Below are positions 8,472-56,248 of a stretch of 64,000 nt of DNA, piece after piece. The notes below the pieces were generated by a model. It made no database searches and was not told the origin of the DNA. It worked only from the letters and a program-made list of their open reading frames with translations. The DNA is from Henricia sp. BOLD:AAB3569 (taxonomy: Eukaryota; Echinodermata; Asteroidea; Spinulosida; Echinasteridae): positions 1,984,001 to 2,048,000 of the forward strand of contig JBBELK010000454.1 in NCBI GenBank assembly GCA_037783545.1, given 5' to 3'. The position numbers and the translations under genes are program-made. Within the stretch, counting starts at the first letter, position 1; each line of letters starts with the position of its first letter.

Positions 8472-9461
8472 TCACAGCTCAGAGAGGAACTTATGAATGG
8501 CCTTGCCAATGTCATCCGGGGAATCTTCTTGAATAAAGTGAAGACCCTTGACGGTGACGCTTTTTAGATTTGGCCAATTCTTGACGACGAATCGAATCGA
8601 CGGGGAGAAGAATCCTGGCTTTGCATCGACGAAGAGCTTTGGAATGTCAGCCGACTCCGACAGCCAATCACGGTAGGCGTTCACAATGGCGACGACATCT
8701 TGAGGCCCCTCCGTCTCAACAGGAACTTCGCGCGGCCATGTCAGGGTCGGTCGGCGGTCCTCGCCAGCGTTGCGGAACGGCTCTCTGAAAGCCTCCATTT
8801 CGTCGTCGCTCAGCTCTCGCATCATCGACTTCGGAAACAAAAGCTCCACGAACAAGTTTTGCTCGAGGACCATATTCTCGCCGTCTTTTGATCGCAGACT
8901 CTGGAATATGTTACGGGCGACATCCGGGAAGACACTCCAATCGGGCACAGTGGCTACGATGCTCTCCATGAAGATAATAGACTGGACGCGGTCAGGGTGC
9001 ATGTGACACCAATGGAATCCGAGCCCGGATCCCCAATCATGACACACGATGGACACCTTACGTGGCAAATTGACCGCTTCAAACCAAGCCGACAGGTACC
9101 TGTAATGGTCCTTGTACTTGTACGATATCGGCAATTTGCTGGATCGACCCATTCCAATGAGGTCCGGAGCCAGACACCTCCGAGCGCCCTCAACGTGCGG
9201 GATGATGTTACGCCAGAGAAAAGACGAGGTTGGATTACCGTGCAGAAACACGACAGCTTCGGTCGACTTGGTCTGTCCGGGGTCTGAATCGTAGTAGCTC
9301 ATTTCCCCATCCAGAATCTCCACGCGACTGCATTTTTCCCACCAGTCGTCCGCCTTAGTGATGCGGGGGAATTCGCTGGACACTCCCCGGCTTGATAGGG
9401 AGAAGTTATTTGACTGGCGAAATCCCAAAATGTTGGAAAGAACACGTATTCTAGACGCCAT
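8472..9461 (-). CDS. Renilla-luciferase / haloalkane-dehalogenase-like alpha/beta hydrolase
   Basis: Intronless reading frame of 329 aa starting at the ATG of MASRIRVLSN; the frame is open 11 codons further up but without an ATG. Family signatures: oxyanion-hole loop HGNPTSSFLWRN (H74-N85) with halide-stabilising N76; nucleophile elbow CHDWGSG with D142 and W143; acidic residue E166 in IIFMES; catalytic His 308 in GLHFIQEDSPDDIG. The stretches RRPTLTWPREVP and PGFFS also fit cnidarian/echinoderm luciferase-like members of haloalkane dehalogenase subfamily II. All catalytic residues are present, so it is probably an active hydrolase. Whether it is a dehalogenase or a coelenterazine luciferase cannot be read from sequence. 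Residues 1-30 are basic and Ser/Asn-rich without acids, resembling a mitochondrial presequence (inference). It is divergent from NLR-1. Confidence 0.93.
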   Translation of the reverse strand: MASRIRVLSNILGFRQSNNFSLSSRGVSSEFPRITKADDWWEKCSRVEILDGEMSYYDSDPGQTKSTEAVVFLHGNPTSSFLWRNIIPHVEGARRCLAPDLIGMGRSSKLPISYKYKDHYRYLSAWFEAVNLPRKVSIVCHDWGSGLGFHWCHMHPDRVQSIIFMESIVATVPDWSVFPDVARNIFQSLRSKDGENMVLEQNLFVELLFPKSMMRELSDDEMEAFREPFRNAGEDRRPTLTWPREVPVETEGPQDVVAIVNAYRDWLSESADIPKLFVDAKPGFFSPSIRFVVKNWPNLKSVTVKGLHFIQEDSPDDIGKAIHKFLSEL

Positions 9462-10835
9462 TTTTGCCGAAATCACATTTGTCACAGTGCACAAACTAGC
9501 TATGCGCTAGCTACCATGTGTACTCGAACTCGGCTGCCCAACTTTAGACTAGACTTGGCAAAGTCCATTGATTGAGTCTATGCTGCTTGTCGCGTGCGCG
9601 CATGCAAATTATTAAACAGCTAGAATCCCCCTTTTAGTTTTTCTGTTTATCATGGAGATGTATGTGTCTACAACACCATCACAACTTGTTTTGCACAAAA
9701 AATCGACAGGCTTTTGCTTAAAACGTAAAGCAGTTCCGACCCTCTTCACCCGAAATTCTGAAACGCTCGAGGTCACTTGGTTTGTTTATCAACAGGGTTT
9801 TGACGTCATCCTGAGAAACATACAAAACGGTCTGTGCAGTATTGAATGGAAAATACACGAAGTGAATGTTTATCATGCCTGTTTTGTCCTTGTAATTCAA
9901 AATACAAACGTAAAAAACACTTCATGTAATGTGACAACAATCTACTATTACCTGTTTTGTGAAAAAAACAGTGAAATTGTGGCTCACAATGAAGCTCTTT
10001 TGAAGTAAATACTGGTGCATTGCGACGGGTGGTTTTGTCACGGAACGAACGGCATTCACAGCGGTCTGTGTACAGCATGGAACGGTTCCGTCCCTGCGGG
10101 CATCGGCCGGTACAAGTTAGAATGAGCGACTCATTTTTTCTCTCTTAGTATTAGAAAAGAAAATCTTTCTGCTCTCTTTTTTTCATAGTGTCTGGTAAAA
10201 CATACAACCACGCAGCTACTGGCATATCTCTGGCTTTTTGGACCAACAAAATTCTTCAAAAAACACCATCTAACAGAGACGGTATTCCAAGTTTTTTGCG
10301 TGTAAACGTATGGAGCTAACAATCGTGTTGACTTCCCTTTCTCAGGATTGCGTCACGGGGACACGCGCATATCATGAATACCTAATGAGCGTTTCAGAAA
10401 TCGCGAAAATCTCATTTTCGAAAAGCGCACTTTTGCTTGCAATTTATCCACTTAAAACTAACAATATAAAAATAATAAAAATCTACGTCGGCAAGAGGGA
10501 TGTTTGGACTATCGAAAAAAGCCTAAATGCTGGATTTTCGTCAAGGGGGATTCTTCCTCTTTAAAAATCACAAAAATATATATTCTTTACGAAGACCCGG
10601 AGGGGACATTTGACCTATTAATAAAAAAAACTTATTAACGACTGGATGACTTGCTAATCGAATTAATGTAAATTGTTAGCTTTTTGCTAAGCATACCGTC
10701 GGCAGCCGTGCACGAGCAGCCAATAGAGGGCGCGCTAATACGGAAGTGTTTCGCGAAAAGCAGTAATTAATAAACTAACTAACCAACGACTGACTCCAAC
10801 TTTCAAGAATACTTAGGGAAAAGCAGATTGGAGAA
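9462..10835. promoter_or_regulatory. Divergent intergenic/promoter region between the hydrolase gene and NLR-1
   Basis: The two start codons are 1375 bp apart here, but 945 bp is a transposon-like insertion with TTAA ends. Without it the spacer is about 426 bp, as in the second copy (19011 to 19446, 435 bp). Elements kept in both copies: an octamer ATGCAAAT (9602-9609 and 19179-19186), and an ETS-like CGGAAGTG followed by the E2F-like palindrome TTTCGCGAAA about 90 bp before the NLR ATG. The bidirectional promoter role is inferred from layout and conservation only. Confidence 0.5.
9616..10560. mobile_element. 945-bp TTAA-flanked non-autonomous insertion (piggyBac-like)
   Basis: It is absent from the second duplicated block, where the flanks are joined directly (ATTATTAAAAATCACA), so the boundaries are precise. 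The target TTAA is duplicated at 9612-9615 and 10561-10564. The ends form an imperfect inverted repeat of about 18 bp sharing AGAATCCCCCTT. It has no transposase ORF. TTAA duplication is the hallmark of piggyBac-type transposition. Confidence 0.75.
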
Positions 10836-13800
10836 ATGACATCACGTGGTCACCTAAGACGCGCCACAGGTGTGGATCCTGACGAAAGACAACAGCCGTC
10901 TGCTGTCTTCATTGGCAGCGTATCTGGCCGGTCACAAGTAAATTTCAACATGACACAAAAAGGTATTTCGAAAAAACAGAGCACTGATCCCCAGTTTCGA
11001 TCTAGGGTCTTAATAAAGATAGTATACATGATTGGTAAACTGTTACAAATAGTTTTACCCCCCTGTGTGATTGAAGATATGCATGATTAAAACCAACCTG
11101 AGCAAAAACCAGCTCCGTACTTCGTCTAACTTTTGAGAAAACAGTCAAAAAAGGGTTTGCAGTCATTTCGCCCCAAAACCACTTCGCCCTGAACCATTTC
11201 GCCCTGAACCACGGCCTGTGCACGAAGTGGTTTTGGGGCGAAGTGGCATTTGCGCGATGTAGTGTTTGGACGAAGTAATTTGGGGCGAAATGGCACTCGG
11301 GCGAAGTGGTTTGGGGCGAAATGGCACTTGGGCGAAATGGTTTTGGGGCGAATTGAATTTTCGTCTCATGAGACGAAAACTAATTGTTTTACTCATTTCT
11401 CAAAGACTATAGCACTTCAGACAAAACCATTTCAGGGGAAGTTTTCCACGGTCATCATGTTTATATTGTGTAAGTTAGGCGTAAATCTGTGAACATTTCT
11501 GATTTTCGAGATTACCAATGATGTATACTGCCTTTAAGTAGCAATCTGCGGCCAAAAGTGTGGAAAATTTTGGAAAATCACAGCACTGAATCGGATTATA
11601 AAAGAGTTCTCACTGCACCAGAGACACTTTTCCCAGATGCTATAGACTACTAAAGTAAAAACGTCATTCTTTGCTCGCTGCCGAAGTTTCTAGCTAAGTC
11701 TACACTCAAATCAGTGACATGTTTCATGTGCTTCACCAATAAAAGTTTCAGATTTCCAGCGAATGTTTGGACCCAATAATATCATGACAAGTGACGTCAC
11801 ACTTTAGTAGTCTACTTTGTGGCAATATAGCACTTACGCATTATGCCAAAAACAAAAGAGTTGATTGCACGGATGTAACTTTAGGTATTTCAGTGTGGTT
11901 TGCCAAAACTTGCCAAAAATATTTAGTCTTTTTTGGCTCTATTACTTAGGCGAGTTGAGGCCATTCATTGCATTTTGCTGTTTTGTCAGACTTTGGGCCT
12001 TGTTTTGTCCGAAAAGTCAATTAGCCTCAATTGAATATTGCTGTATAATATATTTTTTTGCTTTAGTGATACTGTTGATTTTATTGATTCTTGTGACATT
12101 TCTAGAGTACAACAGGCCTGCGTCTGCACAATGCGGACTAGCATTAGTATTTTGCATCGCTGTCGTGACCATGGTGACAGTCATTCTCGTGTTCACTCAC
12201 AAAGATCCAGGTAAATATTTTGTTGTCCAAATTTAAAACCAAAACAAAATCAATCAAAAATACTGGTCAAAACTTGTAATAATCAGCAACATTTGTAAAA
12301 TTTTCTTTATCAAACTGACCAAGCACACTTTATATACAACGCAATATTTGGTAAGGTGCATAACTACCATTAAAATCAAACTTGGGATGAAAAAAAAAAA
12401 AATATGGGCCTTATGATTGATTCGAACACGGGATTCGATCCCGAGACATATGCAGACATATACTATATGCCAGCTGAGCTACACGGTTTGTGTCACCTTG
12501 AAAATTTCTTGTTTCTTTCAGTCTTGGACCTTTGTCAGCAACAAATTATCCAGTTCTACATTGACATGGCAGGAACTATCCCACATCCTTCGTCTCCTTC
12601 AAGAACCTGGAACATTGATCAGTTCTTTATTCCGCTGGAACTTGCCAAGGAATCGTCTAGCCAAACAGAGTCCATACCAGGGGGAGATTTTTTTCTGGAC
12701 AAAGTTCAGTCAGTCCGCCTGAACTCGTGGAAAGATCTTTTTGATCAGAAAAGAGTTATTCTGTCGGGTGGAGCTGGGTACGGAAAATCGACTTTGTTGA
12801 CCAAAATTGCAAACACTTGGGCGAAAAGCGGACAGCCCGCTAGGTTCCAGCTTGTGTTTTTGTTGAGACTGAATCAAATACAAACAACAGGTTGTGTCAT
12901 AAAAGCAATTTTTGAACAGATTTTGCCCAAGGACACAAGTTTGACCACACAGAATATTAAGGACTTACTTGATGGGCATCAAGACAAGATTGCATTTTTG
13001 TTCGATGGTTTCGACGAAATTGAGTCAAATGCCTTAGAATCTCCCGAGGGAGTCTACAGAATCCAAGACATTTTACATCACAAGGTCTTGCGGAACAGTT
13101 TCGTTCTGGTAACTACACGTCCACATAAGGTCGACTCTGTCCGAAAAGCTTACCCATACACTCATGTCAAGACTTTGGGTTTTACCGATGGCAATTTAAA
13201 CAAATTTATCGAGTCTCATTTTTCCAACGATGTCCAGTTGGGCGAGGCTTTACTTTCCCACCTAAAATCAAACCCGTCTCTTCACACATTGTCTACGATT
13301 CCACTCGTAAGCTATATGATTTGCATAATTTGGAAGAACCAAGGATCCTTGCCGAATAAGACGACTGAACTTTACACGGATTTTGCCAAATATATCGTGC
13401 AACAACGATTGGGTGAAGACCAGTGGCAGCAGCGGATGGGCACTCTCCTTAACGGCATTGGGCGAGTTGCTTTGGACGGACTTCTGGACACGAATGCGAA
13501 AAGACAGCTCTTTAGGCCGGAGGAATTCCAGAGTTGCGGGACCTGTTTAGAAGATGGCACGAATACCGGTTTTCTGCAGCGAGAAAACTTCACAAGTGGC
13601 GTAGATGTTAAAGAAGTGGTCGTGTTTTATCACTTGTCATTTCAGGAATACTGCGCAGCGTATTATCTCGTTAATTTGCTCGAGGATAACGCAGACAGTT
13701 TCCATACTAAGGTAGGACAACTGATGAGGGACGCGGATTTGCTGAAAATTTCCCAAATGGAGACGATGCTTAGGTTTTGCTGTGGTAGGTCACATCGGGC

Positions 13801-14557
13801 TGCTGGCGTCATACTTAAACATATAGGCCTACTTAAGTTATCACCGAGGGGTAAATATAATTTCCAGATAGACCCAATATTTTATTCTCAAAGTCAAATA
13901 TCGACTACTTCTAGACTAAACCGCTTCGTGCGCTTGTTTCTATTGGAGGCTGGTTCACCCAAACTTGCATGCAAAGTCCCGAAGCAAAGTCCCGACGTGT
14001 TTTGGTGCAAGACTTCAGAAGACATATTAGCGCTGAAGTTTTATGTCGAGTCGGTCTATGCGAAGTCGCTCAACACTAAGGTACATTTCAATTTTAATTG
14101 TCAGTCCTACGACCAGATGAAAGCCATCTTTGAAGTAATTTTAAGTGTCGACATACGTTCAGTCGCCGGTGTAGAGATTAGTTATCAAGTGTCTAAACAC
14201 GCCAAGAAGGAAATTAGCTACTTGACGGAAATACTCAAATTATTCCAAAAAGGCACTCAATTTAGATTTGTTGTATACGTCAAGGAGGAATATGGTGTTG
14301 ATCAGAACGTTGTTTTCAAAGGTCTTGAATTTCTCCGTCAAAATCAATCAGTGCACCAGTTTCGTACCATTACTGATTACACAGGGTGCCGAAAAACCCT
14401 TTTCTACAAAATGTTATACCTAGAATGCATACCTACCGTGCCAATTGGCTCTAAACCATCATGGACGTCGGAACATGGACGTCTCATTGCAAAAGCACAT
14501 TACGATTCAGTGATTTTTATTTTAGAGACAATTGCCTGGGCAACCACCAAAATGTGA
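10836..14557 (+). CDS. NLR-1: membrane-anchored NACHT ATPase with N-terminal amyloid-like motif
   Basis: Model: exons 10836-10962, 12106-12210 and 12522-14557 (755 aa). Both introns are GT-AG and phase 1. Residues 1-42 are hydrophilic and contain VFIGSVSGRSQVNFN (about 24-38), which resembles amyloid-signalling motifs (inference). Exon 2 encodes a proline-containing linker and one hydrophobic segment (about 53-73). Exon 3 carries the NACHT: Walker A GGAGYGKST (160-168), Walker B/DGFDE (about 232-243), the VLVTTRP sensor region (about 271-278) and a winged-helix/helical HLSFQEYCAAYYL motif (about 448-460). The remaining about 290 residues show no LRRs. NACHT proteins are STAND-type oligomerising ATPases, often in innate immunity. 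An open frame runs upstream of exon 3 from 12404, but it crosses a tRNA-like sequence in the intron and is rejected as coding. The gene is duplicated as NLR-2. Confidence 0.85.
11021..11529 (+). mobile_element. 509-bp MITE with internal CACTTCGCCC minisatellite, complete copy
   Basis: An insertion in intron 1 of NLR-1 that is absent from NLR-2. Its ends form an inverted repeat of about 18 bp (AGTATACATSATTGGTAA). Inside are degenerate 16-17-bp units based on CACTTCGCCC, present in both orientations, so the core can fold back. There is also a perfect palindrome of about 20 bp centred on CTCATGAG (near 11368). It is related to copies at 1270-1711 and about 59975-60060. Confidence 0.75.
11597..11604 (+). 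promoter_or_regulatory. Candidate TATA box in NLR-1 intron 1
   Basis: TATAAAAG followed within about 30 bp by an initiator-like CTCACTGCACC. The same string and context recur in NLR-2 intron 1 (19683-19690). It could drive a shorter transcript lacking the N-terminal motif exon. There is no independent support. Confidence 0.25.
12404..12490 (-). other. tRNA-like sequence in NLR-1 intron 2
   Basis: On the minus strand it reads GTGTAGCTCAGCTGGCA (A-box-like) and then CGGGATCGAATCCCG (B box within a stem). The intervening part does not form a clean anticodon arm. A related tRNA-like sequence sits at the same place in NLR-2 (20985-21065). It is probably a tRNA pseudogene or an old SINE head rather than a functional tRNA. 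Confidence 0.45.
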
Positions 14558-14807
14558 CGTATTCACGTCGTCAGTCTATTTCGATGGGGAACAAGCGACA
14601 GAAATCTTGTCGCCTCTCTATACCAATATCAGGACGCCGCTTGGCAGTGCATTGCAGGCATTCAAATGTAATATAACGCGCGCAGATTGTATAAGCACGT
14701 CAATGCAGTGTGGTATATGTATATAGGCTATACTCGGTAATGCTAGCCGTGTCCGCGTCGGCGATTGGCTGCTATTTAAAGCATACAGGGGTTAGCATGC
14801 ATCACTG
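14525..14807 (+). repeat. 3' flank of NLR-1 duplicated after NLR-2
   Basis: From the end of the NLR-1 reading frame through GGTTAGCATGCATCACTG the sequence matches 24918-25812. There it is broken by a MITE that itself holds a SINE. This places the right side of the segmental duplication near 14.8 / 25.8 kb. Confidence 0.7.
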
Positions 14808-14975
14808 TAATCCAAATGGATTAAATCAAAATGACTCGGGCGTGTGTTTGCTAAACGCAACAGCCGCCTTACTTCACATATTTGCGTGGATTTCCCCAGG
14901 GCATTGTAACGTCGCTTAGCAGAGTGGAAATTCCCTGAGATCACAGGATGACCTTTACTGGGACACTCTTGATAA
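14807..14975 (+). repeat. Repeat present in inverted orientation at about 26140-26312
   Basis: Shared strings read on opposite strands include GATTTAATCCATTTGG, GCCCTGGGGAAATCCACGC and GATCTCAGGGAATTT. It indicates local rearrangement beyond the duplicated NLR blocks. Confidence 0.6.
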
Positions 14976-15128
14976 AATATATGGGCGGCCAAAATAAATA
15001 AAAAATCTTCATCATAAACAATGAGAAACATATAAAGGACAAAACAACGGCAAAGTCAAAATCAAACTATAGACGGGTTGCGTCTGAAACAAGTTACAGA
15101 CGCAAGGTGTTCGGGGCATGTAAAGGAC

Positions 15129-15239
15129 CAGAGGCGGATCGAGCATCATTTAAAAAACAGGAATACGATGAGATTCAGGGGGACCCCCTGAAATAAAACA
15201 CGGTATTCCTATATTTTAACGAGGCTGGATCCGCCACTG
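15129..15239. mobile_element. About 111-bp MITE with hAT-like ends
   Basis: Ends CAGAGGCGGATCGAGC and GCTGGATCCGCCACTG form an imperfect inverted repeat of the CAGTGGCGGATCCAG type found on many hAT MITEs. AGGAC occurs on both sides, but a full 8-bp TSD was not seen. The internal sequence GGGGGACCCCC is palindromic. Confidence 0.5.
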
Positions 15240-15261
15240 AGGACAGAAGTTTAAGCTTTAA

Positions 15262-15545
15262 ATGGACAAACCGGCCTATACTGTTTACGTAATTTAGCAT
15301 AATTGATGGTCCTTGTGAAAAAAGTTCGTCAAAATGTCCCGTTATTAACCACAAAAGTTTAAAGTTAATAAAAACTGTCAATAGTCGAGTTATACGCTTT
15401 ACCAGCCGTTGCTATCCCACGAGACTCACGACTTTGTCGGAAACAATTCGCTTTTCACTTGGCAGCTTTTTGCTTTGGATATCTCTCATTCTCTGCTGAA
15501 GATTTCACTGGACAGCCTGGACGACCGAATGGGTTTTTCCGTTTT
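15262..15545 (+). repeat. Dispersed repeat shared with about 46598-46895
   Basis: Shares ACCGGCCTATACTG, TGATGGTCCTTGTGAAAAAAG, CGAGACTCACGACTTTG, CACTTGGCAGCTTTT and TTTCACTGGACAGCC in the same order. The class was not identified. Confidence 0.6.
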
Positions 15546-16059
15546 CTGTAGAGCAGCTGACCGTTCATGGTTTGTCTTCTCTAACGTAGTTCCACGGCAC
15601 TACCGGTTTCGGGCAGCCAACGTGTGTGTGCCGTGGGGCTAAAAATTACATTGTCCGGTAGACTGTCCACGCGTGGAACTAGCTTCGGTTCCTCGGACTT
15701 TGTGTCAACATTTTATGTACGATTTTTCAGAGTTATGTTTAATAAATAGTCTCTTTTGTCAAATACTCATAAATATTTTGAAAAAAATCAGAGCTGAGTT
15801 TGATGCAGTACTGCAGTAATAAACTTAAGGAATAAACTGTGTATCACACGGCCATATGGCTGGAAATACAACTAACTCACAAGACCACGCGGAACCAGAA
15901 TCTGGTTCCGAAAAGTCACGTGACCTTGACTTTTTGAAAAAAATGCTAAAAAACGGCAAAATGTTGTGGTTTCTTTTCAGGTCCTCTTCAGTCTATTTCG
16001 GAAAGACTTTCAGAATCTGTATGGGTCTATTTCGAGCCCAAAATAGCCCAACATTTTAG

Positions 16060-16440
16060 AGTGAATAGAGTGTTAAAAAAGGTTTATATGAAGTATTGTC
16101 AAGATGACAAAATTATATCACACACTAAGGTCCATCGACTTGGTAAATAGGAAAATATGTCATAGGTCATGGTGACATCAGCTAAATATATCATACACTA
16201 TAAAGGTGACCATCGATTTGGCTAACAGAAACTTAAGTCAAAGGTCATAACGTAATGTTTGTCCAAAATCAAAATTATAGGTATTTTTAAATTATGAAGT
16301 ATAGCCAACGACGTCATTTGAAATTCGCACACTTGTCAAGATGCGTACTCTTAAGTTTCAAGTTCATACCATGTTCCGTTTTTTAGCTAGGCCGCTTTTT
16401 GTCAAAAATCAATTTTTGAAATTTGAAATTATTATTATTA
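16060..16440 (+). repeat. Repeat block shared with about 25912-26485 (partly inverted)
   Basis: The part at about 16062-16300 recurs reverse-complemented at about 25915-26085. The part at about 16285-16440 (ATGAAGTATAGCCAA ... GCTAGGCCGCTTTTTG) recurs in direct orientation at about 26345-26475. No coding capacity was seen. Confidence 0.6.
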
Positions 16441-16639
16441 CGTAATCGTTGATGTTATGATGACATCATACTATCGTCAAGATCCCTTGAATCCCTCGGC
16501 GCCAGGAGTACCCTAGAGTAGACACGGTGCGCTATACAAGTGTCCACCATCACATTTATTACCATTATCCCTTTTGTTATTGCTTGATTTTTCGGGTGTT
16601 TTTCTTTTGCATGTCTTTTTTCTTCTCTTGGGGTCCAAA

Positions 16640-17570
16640 CTTAGTTCAAAGCATATAACTCGAAAACGAAACAAGGTACAACTACGAACTTCAAACTTGG
16701 TACCAACTTAGAACTTAGTCTGAGGTGGACATATAGTAGTGACGTCATCGTGACGTCATCAAGTCTAAAAAAACTAGCCAAAAATGACTAAAATATGCAT
16801 TTCTTAAAATTTCTCCCTCTCCAAAGCCACGTGACCAGGGTCTTCTTATTTGGCAGACATATAAACCAGATCGATCATGAGCTACAATTTGCTTTGTGGG
16901 GACATTTTCATCTGACCATTCCTTCCTGGGTCAATTGAAGGTTACATTTCAGTCGATTAAAATATCAAAATTTTTGTACTTTTTGCACTTATGCAGCAAC
17001 ATTTCCCATGAAACTATGCTTGATCTTCATGAAACTAGGTACAGGCATAGGCCCATGATAAACTTCCAGCAGCATGTATGACGTCACCATGACGTAAATG
17101 ATTACGTAATTATAGAAGGTTGAAACTGCTAAAAAAGATGATTTTCATAATTAAGATGACCAAAATATGCATTTTAAGAAAATGATTCTCTCTCAAACAC
17201 CACATGACCAGGGTCTTCATATTTGGCAGACATATAGATCAGATCATGGTCTACAATTTGCTTTGTGTGGGCATTTTTATCTGACCCTTTCTTCCTTGGT
17301 CAATTGAAGGTCAAAGTTCAGTCAATTCAAAAGTCACTTTTTAAACATAATCCAGCCTAACTGGAGAACGGAACGAGGTATGAACTTCAAAATACAATTT
17401 TAGACTAGGGATCCGGACGTTTGTGTGATGCCACTATGACGTCATCGGTTGGCTTATTATAATATTGTTTAAATACTTTTAAAAAAAAAGTATAACTTGA
17501 AAACGGAACATGGTATGAACTGGAAACTTGGCCCAGTCCTAGGTCTTAGACTAAGGATGCATGTAGTATG
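16640..17570 (+). repeat. Degenerate long-period repeats with TGACGTCA sites
   Basis: A unit of about 370 bp (accession of ACATGACCAGGGTCTTC, TTTGGCAGACATATA, CTACAATTTGCTTTGTG, GGTCAATTGAAGGT) occurs about twice, with a partial third. Between units lie CRE-like TGACGTCA motifs, for example near 16740-16760, 17078 and 17440. No ORF was recognised. Confidence 0.55.
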
Positions 17571-18969
17571 GTTTATTTCACATCTTCCCTGGATTCATTC
17601 AATACAATCATTACAAGCTGCGTTTACTTATATAAACTTGTCATGAATGTCATGTTGAAAACATAACACAACACAACACAACACAATAAGGGCATATTTG
17701 TTAATGGAAGATGTATAGGATGCTAGATAAAAAGCCAATAAGACCTAGCACCCCCGTTACAATTAACAAGGTAATTTTAAATTAAGGTGAGGTGCAAAAA
17801 TTAACAAGAATAAATAAAACATAACTTTATACAATTGTCAAAACTTCTAAAGGACCTTATGTACCATACATAGCTACACTTCGAGGTAAAACTGGTTTTT
17901 ATGTGTAAACTTATTTAGCTATTAAAATATTTAGTACCTTGAAATTAGATAAAAATATTTCTTAAATTTGTAAATACTATATACGCATGTATGGAATATT
18001 TTTTTAATTATTCCACAATAGTGGACCTTGCTGTCTAACTGTAGATTTACAAATACTTGTTCTAACAGGATTTATGTGAAACATAGAAGACAATCTTGTA
18101 TAATAGGTGTGTATTGCATTATTCAAAGTAAAAATATTAACGGTGCAGGGTAATATGTCTTTATCATACTTAAACATTAAGACCCCAATGTGGTATTTGT
18201 AAATTTCAAAAATTGTAAGACATTTAAAGTTTTTAAAAGCATCTGTAATAATTACAGAGGGATTTCTTTTGGACTACAAATAATTTGTTTTAATACGTTT
18301 GATATGTATTTCCCCAAGACAAAACAGTGGGGAAGGGTTAAAGTGTTGTAAATGGAAATAAGCACCTTAGTGGGCAGTATGTGCATCAATTTGCGAAGAA
18401 TACAAGTTCCTTGAGATAACTGAGTGGACTTTTAGACAGTACTCTTTCCATGTAATTTTGTCATCGATTACAACTCCATCACCCATTTGTATTCATTTTT
18501 ACCAGCTATGCCAGTTATTTATATGTATTTGTTATTGTCTATGTGTTAGGACCCCGGTGGAAATAAGCCGTTTTATTATCAGCTTTTTGGGTTATCCTTG
18601 GCTTGTTTTTATGTAGTAAAATGTTTTGTATATTTGTGTTTGTGAGCTATGTTTTTTTGTATATTTTAGCCAAAATAAATAAATAAAATAAATAAAGGAA
18701 TTTTGTATTGCGAGTTTGATTCATTAAAATATTATTAAAGTACACATTATAGTTTTGTGCATCTGTTTTCTTCTTAGAAAACGACATTAAAGTTTGTCTT
18801 GTCAATATTAATGGATAGTTTATACATAATTTATGAGCCATCTGGAGATATTTGCCAATTCAGTATTAACAAGACCAATATCATCTTGCAAACATTTACT
18901 ACTGTAGAAAATATTTGTATCATCAGCAAATAAAATAAATGACAGCAATTTTGAGGAATGACATATATC
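17567..18969 (-). pseudogene. Decayed non-LTR retrotransposon (LINE), 3' part of reverse transcriptase
   Basis: Minus-strand reading gives DICHSSKLLSFILFADDTNIF, containing the RT FADD catalytic motif, then KKKTDAQNYNVYFNN. Beyond an insertion come VVIDDKITWKEYC and an RT-thumb-like segment near 18300-18400. Several frameshifts and stops break the frame. It ends with an AATAAA-containing tail near 17567-17580. It is 5'-truncated and abuts the hydrolase-gene fragment at 18970. Probably a Jockey/CR1-like LINE; the clade is not resolved. Confidence 0.75.
18494..18701 (+). mobile_element. 5'-truncated LINE 3' end nested in the minus-strand LINE
   Basis: Contains a 3'UTR-like GGACCCCGGTGGAAATAAG and ends in an (AAATA)n tail. 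It is flanked by the 8-bp duplication TTTGTATT (18486-18493 and 18702-18709). It interrupts the RT reading of the older LINE between NVYFNN and VVIDDK, so it is the younger insertion. Confidence 0.7.
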
Positions 18970-19192
18970 AAATCCCAAAATGTTGGAAAGAACACGTATT
19001 CTAGACGCCATTTTTGCCGAAATCACACTTATCACAATGATATGCCTATGTGCATGTACGTACATGTACCACCTGTCACCGCGGTATATACGGTACGGTG
19101 TGTATCTGCTGCCCAACTTTAGACTAGACTTGGCAAAGTCCATTGATTGAGTCTAAATGCTGCTTGTCGCGTGCGCGCATGCAAATTATTAA
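18970..19192 (-). pseudogene. 5' fragment of a second hydrolase gene (first about 14 codons plus upstream region)
   Basis: Matches 9420-9612 closely: on the minus strand the start MASRIRVLSNILGF is intact (ATG at 19011). The coding sequence then stops at position 18970 and joins LINE sequence, giving an artefactual fused frame MASRIR...FADDTN. The body of the gene, with all catalytic residues, is not present to the left. It is a truncated duplicate and not expected to be functional. Confidence 0.85.
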
Positions 19193-19445
19193 AAATCACA
19201 AAAATATATATTCTTAAATCATGTTTGACCTATTAAAAAAACACTTATTAACGACTGGATGACTTGCTAATCGAAATAATGTAAATTGTTAGCATTTTTG
19301 CTAAGCATACCGTACAGCCGTGCACGAGCAGCCGATAGAGGGCGCGTTAATACGGAAGTGTTTCGCGAAAAGCAGTAATTAATAAACTATAACCAACGAC
19401 TGACTCCAACTTTCAAGAATACTTAGGGAAAAGCAGATTGGAGAA

Positions 19446-22400
19446 ATGACATCACGTGGTCACCTAAGACGCGCCACAGGTGTGGATCCTGACGAAAGAC
19501 AACAGCCATCTGTTGTCATTGGCAACGTATCTGGGTCACAACTAAATTTCAACATAAAAGTAAAAGGTATTTCGAAACGACAGAGCACTTTCGATCTAGG
19601 CCTATAACATGTATAAGCAGCAATCTGCGGCCAAAAGTGTGGACAATAATTATTTTTGGAAAATCACAGCACTGAATCGGTTTATAAAAGAGTTCTCACT
19701 GCACCAGAGACACTTTTCCCAGATGCTATAGACTACTAAAGTAAAAACGTAATTCTTTGCTCGTTGCCGAAGTTTCTAGCCAAGTCTACACTAAAATCAG
19801 TGACATGTTTCATGTGCTTTACCCATAGAAGTTTCATATTTCCAGCGAATGTTTGGACCCAATAATATCATGACAAGTGACGTCATACTTTAGTAGTCTA
19901 CTTTGTGGCAATTTATAGCACTTACGCATTATGCCAAAAACAAAAGAGTTGATTGCACGGATGTAACTTCAAGTATTTCAGTGTGGTTTGCCAAAACTTG
20001 CCAAAAATATTTAGTCTTTCTCGGCTCTATATATTACTTGGCTCAAGTTAGGACCATTTATTGCATTTTGCAGTTTTGTCAGACTTTGGGCCTTGTTTTG
20101 TCCGAAACGTTAATTAGCCTCAATTGAATACATTTGTTTGTTTTTTGCTTTAGTGATACTGTTGATTTTATTGAATTTCTTCTTGTGACATTCCTAGGGT
20201 ACAACAGGCCTGCGCCTGCACAATGCGGACCAGCATTAGTATTTTGTTGTATTTGCATCGCTGCCCTGATGACAGCCATTCTCATTATGGACAAAGTTCC
20301 AGGTAAATATTTTGTTGTCCAAATTTAAAACCAAAACAAAATCGATCAAAAATACTGGTCAAAACTTGTAATAGTGTCTTGTGTGTTCGTATGATAACTA
20401 CAAAAATCAGCAACATTTGTAAAATTGTCTTTATAATATCAAACTGGTCAGTCACACTTTATATACAACGCAATATTAATTTGGTAAGGTGCATAATCAC
20501 CATTAAAGTTGCACTGCCCGTGTTTGGGCCGATTTGGGCGTCAAATTTGTTTTTAAAAGTTAAATAGGTATTTTTCTAGAATAGAAAAAGTTATCAGCTT
20601 TCATTTGGTACCAAGAACGTAAAAATCCGTCAAGGATTAATGCCAGTCGATTAAAAACAAGAAATGATTAAAAGGCTGGCAGGTCAATTAATCGACAGGG
20701 TTATGACGTAAATGTACATGTGCGCGTACATGTGTACATTGTACACATACTATGTACATATGAGCGTACGCGCACATGTACAACATGTGAAGCACGTTTC
20801 AAGAAAAAGGCTTGTATCTCCAATTCCCGACGTCGGAAATTTAAGTTTTTGATATTTTTCGTTACAGAGACACGTAAGCTTTCTAAATTCGTTCGCTTGT
20901 GTAAATTAATTTTGTTAATCCTTTCACCGAAACACGGGCAATGCAACTTTAAAATCAAACTTGGGATCATGAAAGAAAAATCATATGGGCCTTATGATTC
21001 GAACCCGAGACTTCATACTCACCGGGCAGACAGATGCTCTCAGGCTGCCAGCTGAGCGGGCTATACACGGTTTGTGTCACCTTGAAAATTTCTCGTTTCT
21101 TTCAGCAAAACTCCCGCCGGCCGTGGACCGTTGTCGGCAACATGTTATCCAGTTCTATAATGACACGGCAAGAACTATCCCAGCACATCCTTTGCTTCCT
21201 TCAAGAACCTTGGACATTGATCAGTTCTTTATTAAGCTGGAACTTGCCAAGGAATTGCCCAGTCAAACGAAGCCCACTGAACCTCTCAAGCTATCAGAGG
21301 GGAATTCTGTTCTGGACAAAGTCCAGACGGTCCCCCTGGACTCGTGGAAAGATATTTTTGATCAGAAAAAAGTACGACAGTCCAGAGTTATTCTGTCGGG
21401 TGGAGCTGGATACGGAAAATCGACTTTGTTGACGAAAATTGTGAGCAATTGGGCGGGAAGCGGAGAGCCCGCTAGGTTCAAGCTTGTATTCCTGTTGAGA
21501 CTTAGGAACATACGAACGACGGGATGTCTCATAGATGCAATTTTTAACCAGATTTTGCCCACGGACACAAGTTTAACCAGACAGGAAATGAAGAACGTAC
21601 TTGATGTGCATCAAGACGAAATTGCGTTTTTGTTGGACGGTTTCGACGAATTTCAATCAAGTGCCCTAAATTCTCCAAAGGGCATCTACAGAATCCAAGA
21701 CATTTTACACCACAGAGCGTTAGTGAACAGTTTCGTTCTTGTAACTACACGTCCACATAAGGTCGACTCTATCCAAAAAGGTTACCCACACTACGCTCAT
21801 GTCAAGACTTTGGGTTTTACAGCCGGCAATAGAAACAAATTTATCAAGTATCAATTTTCCAACGATGTCCAGTCGGGCGAGGCTTTACTTTCCTGTGTGG
21901 AATCCAACCTATCCCTTCAATCATTATCTACTATTCCACTCATAAGCCAAATGATTTGCATAATTTGGAAGAACCAAGGTTCCTTGCCGAATAAGATGAC
22001 TGAACTTTACACGGATTTTGCCAAAGTTCTCGTGAAGCGCCGATTGGGTGAAGACCAGTGGCAGCAACGGATGGACACTCTCCTCAACGGCCTTGGGCGA
22101 GTTGCATTGGACGGACTTCTGGACGCGGATGCGAAAAGACAGCTCTTTGAGCCGGAGGAATTCCAGAGTTGCGGGACCTGTTTAGAAGATGGCACGAATA
22201 CCGGTTTTCTGCAGCGAGAAAACTTCACAAGTGGCCTAGATGTTAAAGAAGTGGTCGTGTTTTATCACTTGTCATTTCAGGAATACTGCGCAGCGTATTA
22301 TCTCGTTAATTTGCTCGAGGATAACGAAAATAGTTTCCATACTAAGGTAGGACAACTGATGAGGGACGCGGATTTGCTGAAAATTTCCCAAATGGAGACG

Positions 22401-23102
22401 ATGCTTAGGTTTTGCTGTGGTAGGTCACATCTGGCTGCTGGCGTTATACTTGAACATGTACGTATGTTATCACCGAGGGATAAAGATGACTTTAAGACAG
22501 TATCTTTGTTACAAGTCTCGCCTACTTCTGGACTAAACCGCCTAATGCGCTTGTTACTGTTCGAGGCTGGTTCATCTCAACTTGTACGCAAAGTCCCGAA
22601 CCAAAGTCACGAAGTGTTTTGGTGCAAGACTTCAGAAGACATACTATCGCTACAGTTTTATCTCCGGTCGGTCCATGAGGAGTTGCTCAACGAGCTACAT
22701 TTCGATTTTGAATGTCAGTCCTATGACCAGATGAAAGTCATCTTTGATGTACTTTTTAGTGTCGACATAGGTTCAGTCGCCGATGTAAAGATTAATTATC
22801 AAGTGTCTAAACACGCCGAGAAGGAATTTCGCTACTTGGCGAAAAAACTCAAATTATTCCAAAAAAAAGGCACTCAATTTATATTGGTTGTATTCGGCAA
22901 CGAGGAACATGGTTTTGATTCGAACGTTTTTTACGAACGTCTTGAATTTCTCAGTCATATTCAATTATACGAGCGCGGGTCCGTGACCGTTACTCCTCTA
23001 CCGTGCCGATGTCTTGTTGAACCCGACCCCATAGACGGCCGAAGTGTGGAGTGCGACGTGCCATTTGGCTCTGAACTATCATGTCCGAAAAAAGTACCAT
23101 AA
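19446..23102 (+). CDS. NLR-2: membrane-anchored NACHT ATPase with N-terminal amyloid-like motif
   Basis: Exons 19446-19566, 20198-20302 and 21106-23102 (740 aa), with the same phase-1 GT-AG structure as NLR-1. The N-terminus carries VVIGNVSGSQLNFNI (about 23-37), with whole-codon indels relative to NLR-1. Exon 2 encodes a hydrophobic segment (about 50-71). The NACHT has Walker A GGAGYGKST (174-182), LLDGFDE, VLVTTRP and HLSFQEYCAAYYL. Identity to NLR-1 is very high through the helical domain and lower in the C-terminal about 250 residues. The stop comes earlier than in NLR-1, and the last about 40 residues differ (for example CRCLVEPDPIDG). A 1.8-kb transposon begins 42 bp after the stop. No LRRs. 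An immune-type STAND ATPase role is inferred from the family. Confidence 0.85.
20507..20948. mobile_element. 442-bp piggyBac-like MITE in NLR-2 intron 2
   Basis: Flanked by TTAA on both sides (20503-20506, 20949-20952), with the terminal inverted repeat AGTTGCAYTGCCCGTGTTT. NLR-1 lacks it and shows the single empty site ACCATTAAAATC, which defines the insertion exactly. Inside is an inverted stretch of alternating GTACATGTGCGC-type sequence. A second copy lies at 47285-47692. Confidence 0.9.
20985..21065 (-). other. tRNA-like sequence in NLR-2 intron 2
   Basis: The minus strand reads GCCCGCTCAGCTGGCAG...GAGAGC (D-arm/A-box-like) and CTCGGGTTCGAATC (B box). It sits about 40 bp before the exon 3 acceptor, as in NLR-1, so it predates the duplication. 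The 3' side of the T stem and the acceptor stem do not pair well; a pseudo-tRNA is most likely. Confidence 0.5.
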
Positions 23103-23144: not shown

Positions 23145-24917
23145 GGGCGGGTTCACACTACACTATTTTCATCCGTCAGACGTATACGTTACATCCGTTG
23201 TCCGTCCGTCCGTCGTGTAGCCACACGTCAAAACCTATACCCAGCACGATATGTGGCAGAGGGACTCCCCCCTAACGCCCCTATACCTCAACACACTCTT
23301 CCCTTTCGTTGAAGCGACGGTCACAACCCGCCGTGCGTGTTTTAGTCCGTACGTTTTTTGGGGAGGCCACGGCCGCCGCGTTTTTCTGAAAACGTGTGGA
23401 GGGAGTGGCAAGAGCAGGGAGGGTGTACGTCAACGCACGTCACCCGCACGGTTGCGCAAGGTGTAAGTACGTGGCCCGCACGCCACGCCTGGCCGTGGGC
23501 GGTTGCGTGCATCGTACGTTGCGCAAGTGGTAAGTGAGTTGTACGTGCTTACAACGTGCTTACAACGTACGATCTCCGTGCTATTGCCACGTTATCGTAC
23601 GGAGGCCGTACTTACACGTGCTGCTCACGTACGGTGTCCTTACTCACTCGCATGTTGTAAGTGCGTGCAGGTGCGATGAACGTGAGTTTCCGCCCCATGT
23701 CGGGGGTGGGGGGGAGGGGGGGGGGGGGGGGGGGGGTTATATATAGAAGGACCTTCCGAGGTTCTCCAGAAGTCCCAGCTGCTGCTGCCTCGGATTTGTA
23801 TATATACTGCAGAAATCAGTGCACACAACGTGCGTTGTAAGTGGGGAGCACGTGCTTCCTCGGTACGGTCCACGTGAGTTCTGCGTGCTCATTTGACAGT
23901 TGAACTGGGGAAGTGCCGAGTAAGCAAGGACCACGCACTTATCACGTGCGCAGCACGCACGTGCTAAGTGCGCCGTCCGTAGAGCAACTGACCGTGAGAA
24001 AAATTTTAATTTAAAATTTAAACCTTTAAAAGACTCACGGAGTCAGTGCGTTGTGCGCTTATTGGCTGTAGAGGGCACGCGCGTCACCCGTACTGGGGGT
24101 GAATCCGTAGCCCGAACGCAGCGAAAGTTCCTCGTGCACTAAAAGTGCTGCGGCGTGTCTGCGTGCTCCCAAATCCGTACTGAGGCGGTACTCACCACGT
24201 ACGGATCTCCACGTTTTCGCAAGTAGACAGCACGCACTTGCAAGTACGGTGGGTTGGGACCGTCGCTTAACGCACCAATCCCCCCTTAAAAACTGAAAGG
24301 AATTCTTTGGAAATTCCTTGGATGTTTGAGACACAATAGGGGAACAATGGTAGGGGGAGTCCGTTTGCCACATATCGTGCTGCATATGTCAAAACGGATG
24401 AGTTGAATTTGTTCCAGATTCTGTCCGTTTACGTACGTCTTAGCTTCCCCAGCGGTTCACACTATCGACGCATCCAACCAACCGCATGCGGAGCTGAACA
24501 AAACACACGCGCCGTTTTCATCCATTCCTTATGCGAGCAAAGCTAGCTCAGCCATACATTCGAAAACAAAGAATAAATCTACCACAGGATTTTTTTTCAA
24601 ACAAACCGCTTTAAAAAAAATCATCATGTGGTGGATGTATTTTAGTCGCACTGTTGTAAGTACAACGGCCTTGACGGATAAAAAATCGACGGACAAGTAG
24701 ACCTCGGATCAACACTTCCGTCATCCGTCAATTCGACGTATGAAACGTTCGGATACGTTGATTTGTTTCGACTCGACGTACGTAAATGAAGCTGATCTTT
24801 GAGACGGTTCACATTGAAAACGCATCAACGGACCAAAAACTGACAGACTGGAGACGACGTACGTAAATTTTACTTTTTACATCTGACGGACAAAAATAGT
24901 TCAGTGTGAACCCGCCC
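23145..24917. mobile_element. 1773-bp non-autonomous DNA transposon, TTA TSD (PIF/Harbinger-like)
   Basis: Ends GGGCGGGTTCACACT and AGTGTGAACCCGCCC are perfect inverted repeats, flanked by TTA (23142-23144, 24918-24920). The empty site is preserved next to NLR-1 (TTTTAGAGACAATTG). TTA/TWA duplication fits PIF/Harbinger. No transposase. The interior is unusually rich in CACGT/GTACG words and contains a second inverted pair (CAGCACGATATGTGGCA at about 23245 and its complement near 24375), suggesting a nested element. There is a G-only run near 23717-23736. Confidence 0.8.
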
Positions 24918-37346: not shown

Positions 37347-37831
37347 TGTAACGTCGGTAAATGATCACAAACTTGACTGGTTTATTCACTCTCGGGTACC
37401 GACATACAACTGCCCTTTAATGCCACTACAGCTGCCTGATGCCACGTCAACTAGGATTTAAAATAAAGATAACAAATAAACAGTACTTAATAAACAGTAA
37501 AACTCTGTAACAAGCTTCCAAAACACGGGCGCAGACAACACCACCGCGAGAGGGCGGTATAACCTGCAGCGGCGAGTAACGTTGCAAACTCGCCCCAGGT
37601 AAACACACGGGAGGGGGTGAACATCCATCCAAAACTACAACAAATTTAACTTTAAACAACTGTCCCATGGGTCCAGATAAACTGGGTAACTTTCCCCTTC
37701 AACTGCAAGGGCTGCAAGGTATAGATGAAGGCAGAATTTATGCCAAAAGTCCCACTAAAAGTGTCACTAAAAGTTCACTGAACGGCAATTAAGCTAATGC
37801 CGGGGCGAAACTCCACTTAATTAACTTTCCA
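37347..37831 (-). repeat. 3' LTR of the BEL/Pao element
   Basis: 485 bp, TG...CA termini. It matches the other LTR over its whole length apart from a 6-nt deletion. The pol reading frame ends within it. Confidence 0.9.
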
Positions 37832-40081
37832 AATATCGACGTAGAAACTTCTCATAATTTCAGGATGTTGGTTGTCTGCTGTGCATTTACGCAGGGCTGC
37901 AGAAGCACAAGATGGCGATGATACAGCACCAAATGGGTGTGACGTCAGACGATAGACTTCTGGTGGTCGGGAAATGTCTCCATCTGGAAACCACAGATAA
38001 CGTAGGCAATCTCGATGATGTTCAGATACCTTTACTTGAAAGAACATGCCCTCAATATCCCCCATGAGCCCGACTGATTGTTGCCTGAAGCGTAGCAGCA
38101 CATCTACGACTGTGTTCGTGAGAGTGGGCCCTGGAAGGAGTGCGTCGTTGAGCGAGACTCCTCTGGTCTTCGCCGAGCAATCGAAAACAACTCTTATCTT
38201 GCCCGGTTTGTTGGGATTGTAGATGCCGTGATGAGGCATATACCATCGGTTCACTGCATCACTGCTGTCGTCGGTGGGCTCAACAAGCTTCTCTCCATAC
38301 CCTTTCTCCATTAGTGAGTTCATGAAGGTCGTATAGTCATGGTGGAAGTTCGGATTGCTTCTTAGCTTCTTCTTCAATGACATCAAGCGGTTCATAGCTT
38401 CAGATTGGTTGTCTTCAAGCTTACAAGCTGGATCTCGGAAAGGCAGGTCGCATTGATAGTGACCGTCTACCAGCTTCAAAGATCTATGAATGATCTCCTC
38501 AAATCGCTTGTCTTCAACTGAAGGCTCCTTGGTACTGTCCACCAGGCGCTCCGGAAAATCCATGTCCATGGAAGATCTCACCAGGTCTTCCAACCTCTGA
38601 AGTTGTTCTGCCTCTGCTCTAACTGATGCTAATTGGTAGTTGGAAGAGTGACAGGGTTCATCTCCGCCTCTCACCATCCCCCATATTATCCATCCAAGCA
38701 CTGATCTGGCTCCATGGGGTGCACCAACTGGCCCTGTCCTCAGTTCTCGTGGTGTGTAGGCGGCTGGAACGTTATTGCCTATCAGCATCTGTACCTCAGC
38801 CTCAATAACTGGGAGCTTGATCCCTCTAAGGTGGTGATATATGTCAACGTCTTCTTGCGTTGGCATGAGATCTCTGGTGACGGGCATCTCAGATTTGGTA
38901 TAGACTACAGGGAGCTTTACCGTGGGACCTAGGTCCAGCCCGCACACTTCTAGTCCTGAAATACGGTAGGTCTTGAAATTCTGTGTCTGTCCCATGGTAC
39001 TTAGTTCCATGGTGGTGGCCTTGCCGGTTACTCCAAGCTGCTGTGCAAGGTCCTTGGTGCAGAAAGTCACGTTGCTGCCTGGGTCAAGGAATGCGTAGGT
39101 CTCTACTGTAGTGTTAGTAGTCGGGGATCTGACCCTTACTGGAATGATGGCCATAGTGCAAAGACCTGCGCCGGCTCCCATGTGGGAACTTGCCCTGTCC
39201 TTGGGTGGAGCTACGTATGTGGAACATGAATTCCCTTGTTCAGTGGTCTTGGGCGTCTGTTGCTTTAAGGACTCTTCTTCTACCTTCTCATGATGTTCCC
39301 TGTCCTTATGTAGCACTGTGGGGTGCAGGGAGCTACACTCCTTGCACTTGGCTTTTGCTCTGCATCGTTTGCTCAGATGGCCGAACTTGAGGCAACCAAA
39401 GCAAAGCCCCTTGGACTTCAGAAACTGCAGCCTTTCTTCAATTGACCTTGCCTTAAGTTTCCGACATTCCTGCATCGAGTGAGCTGTACCCTGACAGAAA
39501 CTGCATGGCCTAGAACTTGCTACATCAGTTGTCAATTTAGTGCCTGAATCAGTATAAGACAGTTTCTCGGATTCGCTGATCGGCTCAGATGCTCCGAAAG
39601 CACATCCAATTTTTCTGACCCGTGGCTGAGGGCGTCCTCCCACATTCGGTCTAGTTTCCTTGGGCTTGTATCCCAAGGCGAATCGTCCATATACTGGGTC
39701 TGTTGCCTTCCTGGCTTCTCTTTGGACGAAGTCTACCAAGTGAACAAAGGTGACTGACTCGCCACCGTCCTTCTTATTCATGACTATATTCCGCCATCTC
39801 TCGTGTAGATAGAAAGGGAGCTTGGACACCAGTCTCTTGATGTTCTCGGCATACTCCAAAACCCTTGCGGCATTCATGGAGTGAACTGCATTTTTGCACT
39901 CCATGAGGAATATTGCAAAGGCGTCAAGTCCAGATGGGTTATCAGGTCTGATTTCTGGCCAACCAAGAGCCCGCTGTATGTAAGCATTGGCCAGGAGATC
40001 CACATCTCCATACCGCTTTTCTAATTCTTTAAGGGCAGCCGGGTAGCCTACATCACCAGGGAGACAGCTAGCTATATCCAT
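37817..40081 (-). CDS. BEL/Pao pol-type ORF: Gag C-part, zinc knuckles, protease, truncated RT
   Basis: 754 codons from ATG at 40081. In order: Gag continuation (PGDVGYPAALKELEKRYGD), zinc knuckles CSFCQGTAHSMQEC and CFGCLKFGHLSKRC (about 193-240), an aspartic protease with DPGSN (333-337), and BEL/Pao RT (about 600-750) with RVVFDCSAK, GDIEGMFFQVKV and SHPFGAVSSPS. The frame ends FYVDIWKVN: after YVD it enters the 3' LTR and stops, so the second catalytic Asp of YVDD and everything downstream are lost. RT cannot be functional. It overlaps ORF1 by 14 nt in another frame. Confidence 0.9.
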   Translation of the reverse strand: MDIASCLPGDVGYPAALKELEKRYGDVDLLANAYIQRALGWPEIRPDNPSGLDAFAIFLMECKNAVHSMNAARVLEYAENIKRLVSKLPFYLHERWRNIVMNKKDGGESVTFVHLVDFVQREARKATDPVYGRFALGYKPKETRPNVGGRPQPRVRKIGCAFGASEPISESEKLSYTDSGTKLTTDVASSRPCSFCQGTAHSMQECRKLKARSIEERLQFLKSKGLCFGCLKFGHLSKRCRAKAKCKECSSLHPTVLHKDREHHEKVEEESLKQQTPKTTEQGNSCSTYVAPPKDRASSHMGAGAGLCTMAIIPVRVRSPTTNTTVETYAFLDPGSNVTFCTKDLAQQLGVTGKATTMELSTMGQTQNFKTYRISGLEVCGLDLGPTVKLPVVYTKSEMPVTRDLMPTQEDVDIYHHLRGIKLPVIEAEVQMLIGNNVPAAYTPRELRTGPVGAPHGARSVLGWIIWGMVRGGDEPCHSSNYQLASVRAEAEQLQRLEDLVRSSMDMDFPERLVDSTKEPSVEDKRFEEIIHRSLKLVDGHYQCDLPFRDPACKLEDNQSEAMNRLMSLKKKLRSNPNFHHDYTTFMNSLMEKGYGEKLVEPTDDSSDAVNRWYMPHHGIYNPNKPGKIRVVFDCSAKTRGVSLNDALLPGPTLTNTVVDVLLRFRQQSVGLMGDIEGMFFQVKVSEHHRDCLRYLWFPDGDISRPPEVYRLTSHPFGAVSSPSCASAALRKCTADNQHPEIMRSFYVDIWKVN

Positions 40082-41354: not shown

Positions 41355-41510
41355 TACTTGCAGCAATTTTCTGTTGTTGATTTTCTCTCTTTTTTTGCAA
41401 TTGATTCTAGGTGGTCTTCAATGTTACCTAAGGGTCACCAGTGTTGACTCGGGGTCACTTATCTCTGGGTCACTTCGGCACTATAACTCTGGGTTACCAT
41501 TAGCGTTGAC

Positions 41511-56184: not shown

Positions 56185-56228
56185 GAGGAAGTAAAGGACA
56201 GGCGGAGGAAGTAAAGGACAGGCGGAGT
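56185..56228 (+). repeat. Two tandem 20-bp units upstream of the receptor gene
   Basis: GGCGGAGGAAGTAAAGGACA occurs twice in tandem followed by a partial GGCGGAG, 20-60 bp before the ATG; purine-rich. Confidence 0.75.
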
Positions 56229-56248
56229 GCGGAGTAGAATTGGCTACA

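Follow-up and report, generated by a model that had tools for sequence, protein, structure and literature searches.

The 64,000-nucleotide stretch of the Henricia sp. BOLD:AAB3569 genome analysed here (contig JBBELK010000454.1, forward-strand positions 1,984,001 to 2,048,000; hereafter the window, whose coordinates are used throughout) carries two related genes in tandem, copies A and B, each predicted to code for an NLR protein with a short N-terminal segment, one transmembrane (TM) helix and a NACHT domain. Both are on the + strand and have three exons. Copy A is composed of exon 1 (10836..10962; 42 codons plus 1 nt, ending at a phase-1 donor), exon 2 (12106..12210; 105 nt, phase 1-1) and exon 3 (12522..14557), the latter coding a linker, the NACHT domain, a winged-helix/HD2-like part and a C-terminal part. 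In copy B the corresponding exons span 19446..19566 (40 codons plus 1 nt), 20198..20302 (105 nt, phase 1-1) and 21106..23102. The joined frames run for 755 and 740 amino acids to the stop codon in A and B, respectively, and each start codon has an in-frame stop 15 codons upstream. Every junction has GT/AG borders and phase 1, in A and B alike. Exon 2 codes in both copies for a hydrophobic helix, LALVFCIAVVTMVTVILVF in A (12138..12194, +) and PALVFCCICIAALMTAILIM in B (20230..20289, +), whose best 19 residues average 3.04 and 2.85, respectively, with the Kyte-Doolittle scale values. The three-part anatomy of the initial annotation, with a first exon of about 40 codons ending at a phase-1 donor, a 105-nt exon for one hydrophobic segment, a NACHT exon and phase-1 introns throughout, is thus confirmed in both copies.

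A scan of the two 5' regions for phase-1 TM exons returned exon 2 as the sole candidate, with two acceptors in copy A. The second in-frame acceptor, at 12067, would extend exon 2 of copy A by a second hydrophobic stretch (12067..12105, +) and is unusable in copy B, where this stretch is frame-shifted. A two-helix reading, open in A and broken in B, was not adopted. Intron 2 has a tRNA-like look by eye, and ARAGORN found no tRNA there.

The NACHT domains encoded by exon 3 lie at 12752..13228 (+) in copy A (Pfam E 2.7e-24) and 21384..21863 (+) in copy B (E 1.1e-23). They share the Walker A motif GGAGYGKST and have the Walker B motifs FLFDGFDE and FLLDGFDE, respectively. Exon 3 of copy A aligns in the PDB with NLRP3, NLRC4 and other NLRs (best E 3.5e-20; 46 distinct sequences at E<=0.001), and the alignments reach exon 3 residue 388-437, showing that the helical and winged-helix parts following NACHT are present; the match to NLRC4_HD2 is weak (20 bits versus a cut-off of 33). 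Walker motifs and helical parts qualify both copies as predicted NLRs, of the NACHT STAND NTPase type. The C-terminal part (13841..14383 in A and 22467..23000 in B, both +) contains no leucine-rich repeat (LRR) or other C-terminal repeat in the Pfam scans of the pair. Modelled alone, that of copy A displays beta-alpha repeats at low confidence (mean predicted local distance difference test score, pLDDT, of 59), and a fold search with this model gave no match at E<=0.001. A model of exon 3 from a 2-row alignment (mean pLDDT 34) was not used. The standard animal NLR effector domains had been described as absent, and none was found, Death being sought by tblastn and CARD, PYD, DED and TIR through general Pfam scans only. 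A tblastn search of the window with the genome's own immunoglobulin (Ig) and Death domains gave one chance match (E 0.63), and no Pfam Ig domain occurs in the 10 scanned of the 45 open reading frames (ORFs; at least 45 amino acids) around the genes.

Copies A and B are evidently, judging by their alignment, the product of a recent and partly homogenised tandem duplication. Affine-gap alignment gives 97% identity in the 5' flank, 96% in intron 1, 94% in intron 2 and 88% in exon 3, the divergence of exon 3 differing from that of the noncoding segments with p 1.8e-13. MAFFT, which spreads large indels, yields 90%, 92%, 77% and 84%, respectively, so that the contrast between intron 2 and exon 3 depends on the aligner. 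A segment of copy A exon 3 (13522..13821, +) is 97-99% identical to B while the remainder of the exon is 80-92% identical, which probably results from gene conversion. The overall pattern can be explained by a recent homogenisation that affected the 5' half and this segment, or by an origin of the remaining exon 3 from a more distant donor. As to the "coherent mobile architecture" initially ascribed to the exons, the likeness between copies stems from this single duplication and its homogenisation. Upstream of copy B, at 18970-19039, recurs a 70-bp piece of the 5' part of the alpha/beta-hydrolase gene (frame at 8472-9506, - strand, E 2.7e-25), which indicates that the duplicated unit extended into the hydrolase gene. 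Just 3' of copy B, an inserted element is recognised by eye at 23145-24917, its inverted ends being GGGCGGGTTCACACT and TTA flanking it at either end; it accounts for the shifted 3' match between the copies.

The mitochondrial COX1 of the genome has AAA at positions where Asn is invariant, which indicates the echinoderm code, and of 8 tRNA matches upstream of COX1 (one of them under its gathering score) 7 lie on the minus strand, an asteroid-like order; the host is accordingly an echinoderm and probably a sea star. At least 45 NACHT matches, counting those of the window pair, occur in the genome. Copies A and B are 73% alike and the next nearest NACHT domains, at C69 and C293, are 35% alike to them. 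The latter two loci (rows L020, L021 and L029) are near-copies (95.6% over 4.1 kb) that may represent haplotypes. Upstream of the C293 NACHT are found a V-set Ig exon (E 1.7e-6, above cut-off; read at C293 only), two exons that together code for a C2-like Ig domain (E 6e-4 for the combined halves, just under cut-off) and a 147-nt TM exon that can be spliced in phase 1 to the NACHT exon. Between the helix and a conserved Cys there are 11 residues in C293, compared with 10 in copy A and 14 in copy B. The C293/C69 locus thus probably codes for an Ig-Ig-TM-NACHT protein. A 22-row tree, in which the window pair is joined by 20 of the remaining 43 NACHT places (L013 with a short row), unites the four TM-type rows with support 100/98. 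A strict scan of L009-L028 for TM exons gave none, and its donor filter also misses the exon of L020/L021, so that absence is not implied. Other NACHT exons are preceded by Death domains (L025, L026, L027 and L031), and a TRADD-N-like stretch upstream of an NLR (L009:2824-3333) scores 20.1 bits versus a cut-off of 23.7. The best reading of these comparisons is that the window pair belongs to a TM-NACHT lineage of echinoderms, in a form without Ig domains.

It is rather probable that copies A and B, arranged in tandem, code for NLRs anchored in the membrane by a single pass and belong to the same lineage as the Ig-Ig-TM-NACHT gene, but with the Ig ectodomain replaced by a segment of ~43 residues whose short motif is a stub. 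Kinship with the Ig-bearing gene suggests that the helix is an anchor with the N-terminus outside and NACHT inside. The helix would keep the NACHT domain at the cytosolic face of the membrane, while the C-terminal part, the fastest-changing at the protein level, would sense a ligand or partner. ATP-driven oligomerisation at the membrane might then give the output, perhaps jointly with Ig-bearing TM-NACHT partners and similar to the actin/phagocytosis output of the sea cucumber receptor AjNLRC4. Between the copies the NACHT core (codons 151-400) has a deficit of nonsynonymous changes (p 0.0017), and codons 551-700 have an excess (p 0.017). The initial proposal of a membrane-tethered animal NLR is supported by the gene anatomy, the TM exon of the kin gene and the published sea cucumber TM-NACHT receptors; its amyloid component is not supported. 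The pair suggests that one more echinoderm has membrane-anchored NACHT receptors and that Ig-less and Ig-bearing forms coexist in it, so that the function of the ectodomain and the side of the membrane on which NACHT lies become testable.

Several observations weigh against this interpretation. No signal peptide is evident in exon 1, and the N-terminal tail is basic, with +7/-4 charges in A versus +1/-3 in the 30 residues on the C-terminal side of the helix, and +7/-3 versus +5/-3 in B. Under the positive-inside rule a basic N-terminal tail favours a cytosolic N-terminus, most in A. The sensor role of the C-terminal part relies on the weak p value of 0.017 and on the model with pLDDT 59. The exon models of A and B are predictions from genomic DNA alone and the Ig-TM-NACHT relative was likewise assembled from ~7 kb of genomic DNA; the TM exon of this relative, at C293, has two possible donors, of which one only fits phase 1. 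Exon 1 of copy B also ranks 4, 5 and 5 among 2815 window ORFs (E 1.6, 1.6 and 3.5, the last out of register) when searched with three small profiles of a separate motif exon, named here the GxGN exon and described below.

A first alternative is that the natural transcripts begin with different 5' exons, or that the genes are decaying, exons 1 and 2 as drawn not being spliced to the NACHT exon. The models derive from genomic DNA, copy A has a competing acceptor whose extension is frame-shifted in B, and several indels separate exon 2 of the two copies. Nevertheless, the indels in exons 1 and 2 keep the frame, and this suggests that both exons are coding: their lengths are multiples of 3 in 5/5 cases when neighbouring gaps are netted (4/6 as first aligned) versus 6/35 across the 5' flank and the two introns (Fisher p 0.0007 and 0.024, respectively). 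Splice sites and phases are identical in A and B, the nearest relative also has a TM exon ahead of its NACHT exon, and no Ig or Death relative was found elsewhere in the window, save the chance match cited above. The use of other 5' exons is therefore rather unlikely.

It is improbable, too, that the hydrophobic segment acts as an effector helix, inserting into the membrane only once NACHT has oligomerised, in a pore-like manner comparable to plant CC or fungal HeLo N-termini, rather than as a standing anchor. A single N-terminal helix does precede the STAND switch, and membrane-attacking N-terminal helices have been reported in HeLo and CC-RPW8 proteins (PMC12881547). Against this, the helix of the window genes is positioned ~50 residues into the protein, on its own exon, and the distance between helix and NACHT exon is much like that of the Ig-bearing receptor gene.

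The initial annotation had assigned amyloid signalling to the motif found in exon 1, SAVFIGSVSGRSQVNFN in copy A (10899..10949, +) and SVVIGNVSGSQLNFN in copy B (19509..19553, +). The motif text reads ...FIGSVSGRSQVNFN and ...VIGNVSGSQLNFN, respectively, followed by four residues and the junction. In this reading a cytosolic motif would form a beta-arch and template a partner upon NACHT oligomerisation. The N-terminal position of the motif and its resemblance to a beta-turn-beta unit containing G, N and Q speak for this role, as do the survival of the frame through two codon deletions and three changes that swap one hydrophobic residue for another. The conservation of the motif between A and B was dropped as evidence, since the introns and the 5' flank are equally alike. 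The first 60 aligned nucleotides of exon 1 are in fact identical in the two copies, and the 8 substitutions and two codon deletions are confined to the motif half, which evolves faster than the flank and intron 1 (8/61 versus 35/871 substitutions, p 0.005). Seven of the 9 differences in exon 1 are nonsynonymous by the Nei-Gojobori count, too few for a test.

Comparison with known motifs and searches argue likewise against amyloid signalling. Scored with the values of an aggregation scale, the motif segments do not outscore shuffled sequences (0.12 and 0.68). RHIM and PP motifs share a G-phi-Q-phi-G core (PMC7885112) and the RHIM tetrad is given as V/I-Q-V/I-G (PMC12119088), whereas the residues around Q are R-S-Q-V-N in A and G-S-Q-L-N in B. 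No RHIM profile matched exon 1 in Pfam to E 10, a search limited by HMMER filters that remove most matches above ~0.1, and a single chance match was obtained in the PDB (E 0.25). A search of the 740.7-Mb genome to E 10 with the exon 1 peptide of copy B found the two window genes only, with neither a third exon 1 nor the same motif on an effector or adaptor, although a shorter diverged motif could escape it; conservation in the other paralogues, on which the initial proposal was staked, was thus not found. Furthermore, a single helix places motif and NACHT on opposite sides of the membrane, and homology to the Ig-bearing relative leaves the N-terminus outside. Signalling by amyloid through the exon 1 motif is accordingly unsupported, and we give it a low probability. 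Most likely, the short motif forms a stub on the non-cytosolic side and has no conserved role in signalling.

A different short beta-like motif exon, with the pattern GxGNIxIxNPxGxxIxI, is found upstream of other NACHT exons and has phase 1 where its borders could be read. A genome search with one copy found 17 places to E 10, of which 11 have a same-strand NACHT match 1.4-6.8 kb downstream (0.004 expected). The copies include L009:125-256, L017:742-873, L013 (reverse) 2333-2455 and L019:5117-5212, as well as L034, L036 and L038-L043, and are distributed over contigs C1010, C129, C1662, C220, C256, C854, C259 and C23. Eight copies have an AAG|GTA donor that is missing in L009 and L038. A divergent copy preceding the NLR at 4.29 Mb of C23 finds itself and two places of the family (E 0.11 and 3.1). 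At C1662 the GxGN exon is arranged head to head with an NLR. Approximately 0.9 kb upstream of another NLR exon, the exon MEESTHRDSNRVFVKVKGTDNITIVNPTNSKIYVNSND (L032:2500-2613, reverse strand, C162:1487400-1491400) resembles the motif.

Six of the 17 places have no NACHT match within 8 kb, and five of these were read over 6 to 6.7 kb. At C291 and C921 the GxGN exon is followed by a same-strand ORF for a Death domain (24.9 and 21.5 bits versus a cut-off of 22.6), the absence of NACHT covering 8 kb only. The ORF listing shows no Death ORF after the exon at C129, C972 and C1662, where Pfam was not applied. Purifying selection on the recent copies of the exon was not shown, as the ratio of nonsynonymous to synonymous differences (pN/pS) is 0.91 (bootstrap 0.64-1.38) in a set of 13 loci in which L035 and L037 were not extracted and L013 is shortened. 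These features make the GxGN exon a candidate homotypic or amyloid-like signalling motif, and a better candidate than the window motif for amyloid signalling by animal NLRs. The consulted portion of the literature on amyloid motifs in invertebrate NLRs has no report of a GxGN-type exon, which offers a concrete candidate for this open question.

The presence of such an exon ahead of many NACHT exons might mean that an amyloid device is not foreign to the species. Exon 1 of copy B ends like the GxGN exons (...KG, phase-1 donor), combining a weak sequence resemblance with the same exon boundary. Its membership in the family, suggestive with the small profiles, is lost with a larger one: against a 13-sequence profile its rank falls to 36 (E 23). 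Exon 1 of copy A ranks 750-1309 with the small profiles and 480 with the larger. It is improbable that the GxGN exon carries a non-RHIM, amyloid-like signalling motif common to NLRs and NACHT-less Death-domain proteins, with exon 1 of the window as a diverged member ahead of a membrane helix, forming an animal counterpart of the fungal and bacterial NLR amyloid signalosomes.

A type II receptor, with the basic N-terminal tail and motif as a cytosolic signalling end and NACHT extracellular, is very unlikely: the charge bias, clearest in copy A, and the reported extracellular NACHT of AjNLR-new (PMC13133943) speak for it, but intact Walker motifs and a constrained NACHT core fit an ATP-using cytosolic switch, and the Ig-domain kin gene implies the opposite topology.

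The window also codes for a class C G protein-coupled receptor (56195-58351, +; ANF_receptor E 3.9e-66, with NCD3G and 7tm_3) and has retroelement-like frames (37817-41417, -), one of the two with a weak match to aspartyl protease, under cut-off.

Membrane-anchored NLRs of this type have counterparts in the sea cucumber Apostichopus japonicus. AjNLRC4 is reported to have Ig domains, a TM segment and an intracellular NACHT without CARD or LRR, and a second TM after NACHT (PMC8699970); an actin/phagocytosis output is also reported. The window pair, likewise from an echinoderm, has a TM helix immediately preceding the NACHT exon, no CARD and no LRR called, and its nearest relative in the genome orders V-set Ig, C2-like Ig, TM and NACHT. 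The likeness refers to published domain order, not to sequence, and the window genes differ in featuring a short N-terminal segment in place of an Ig exon or an evident signal peptide. AjNLR-new, for which a NACHT outside the cell was reported on the basis of TMHMM and antibody work (PMC13133943), also combines an N-terminal TM with a C-terminal NACHT, but has two helices with Ig between them while the window pair has one. Short N-terminal beta-prone segments ahead of a STAND NTPase are shared with the RHIM, PP and BASS systems, whose core residues are not present in the window genes and for which neither motif conservation nor a partner gene was found. Vertebrate NLRs such as NLRP3 and NLRC4 align with the pair from NACHT to the helical region; the window proteins have no PYD or CARD and no LRR was found in them, while they possess a membrane helix.

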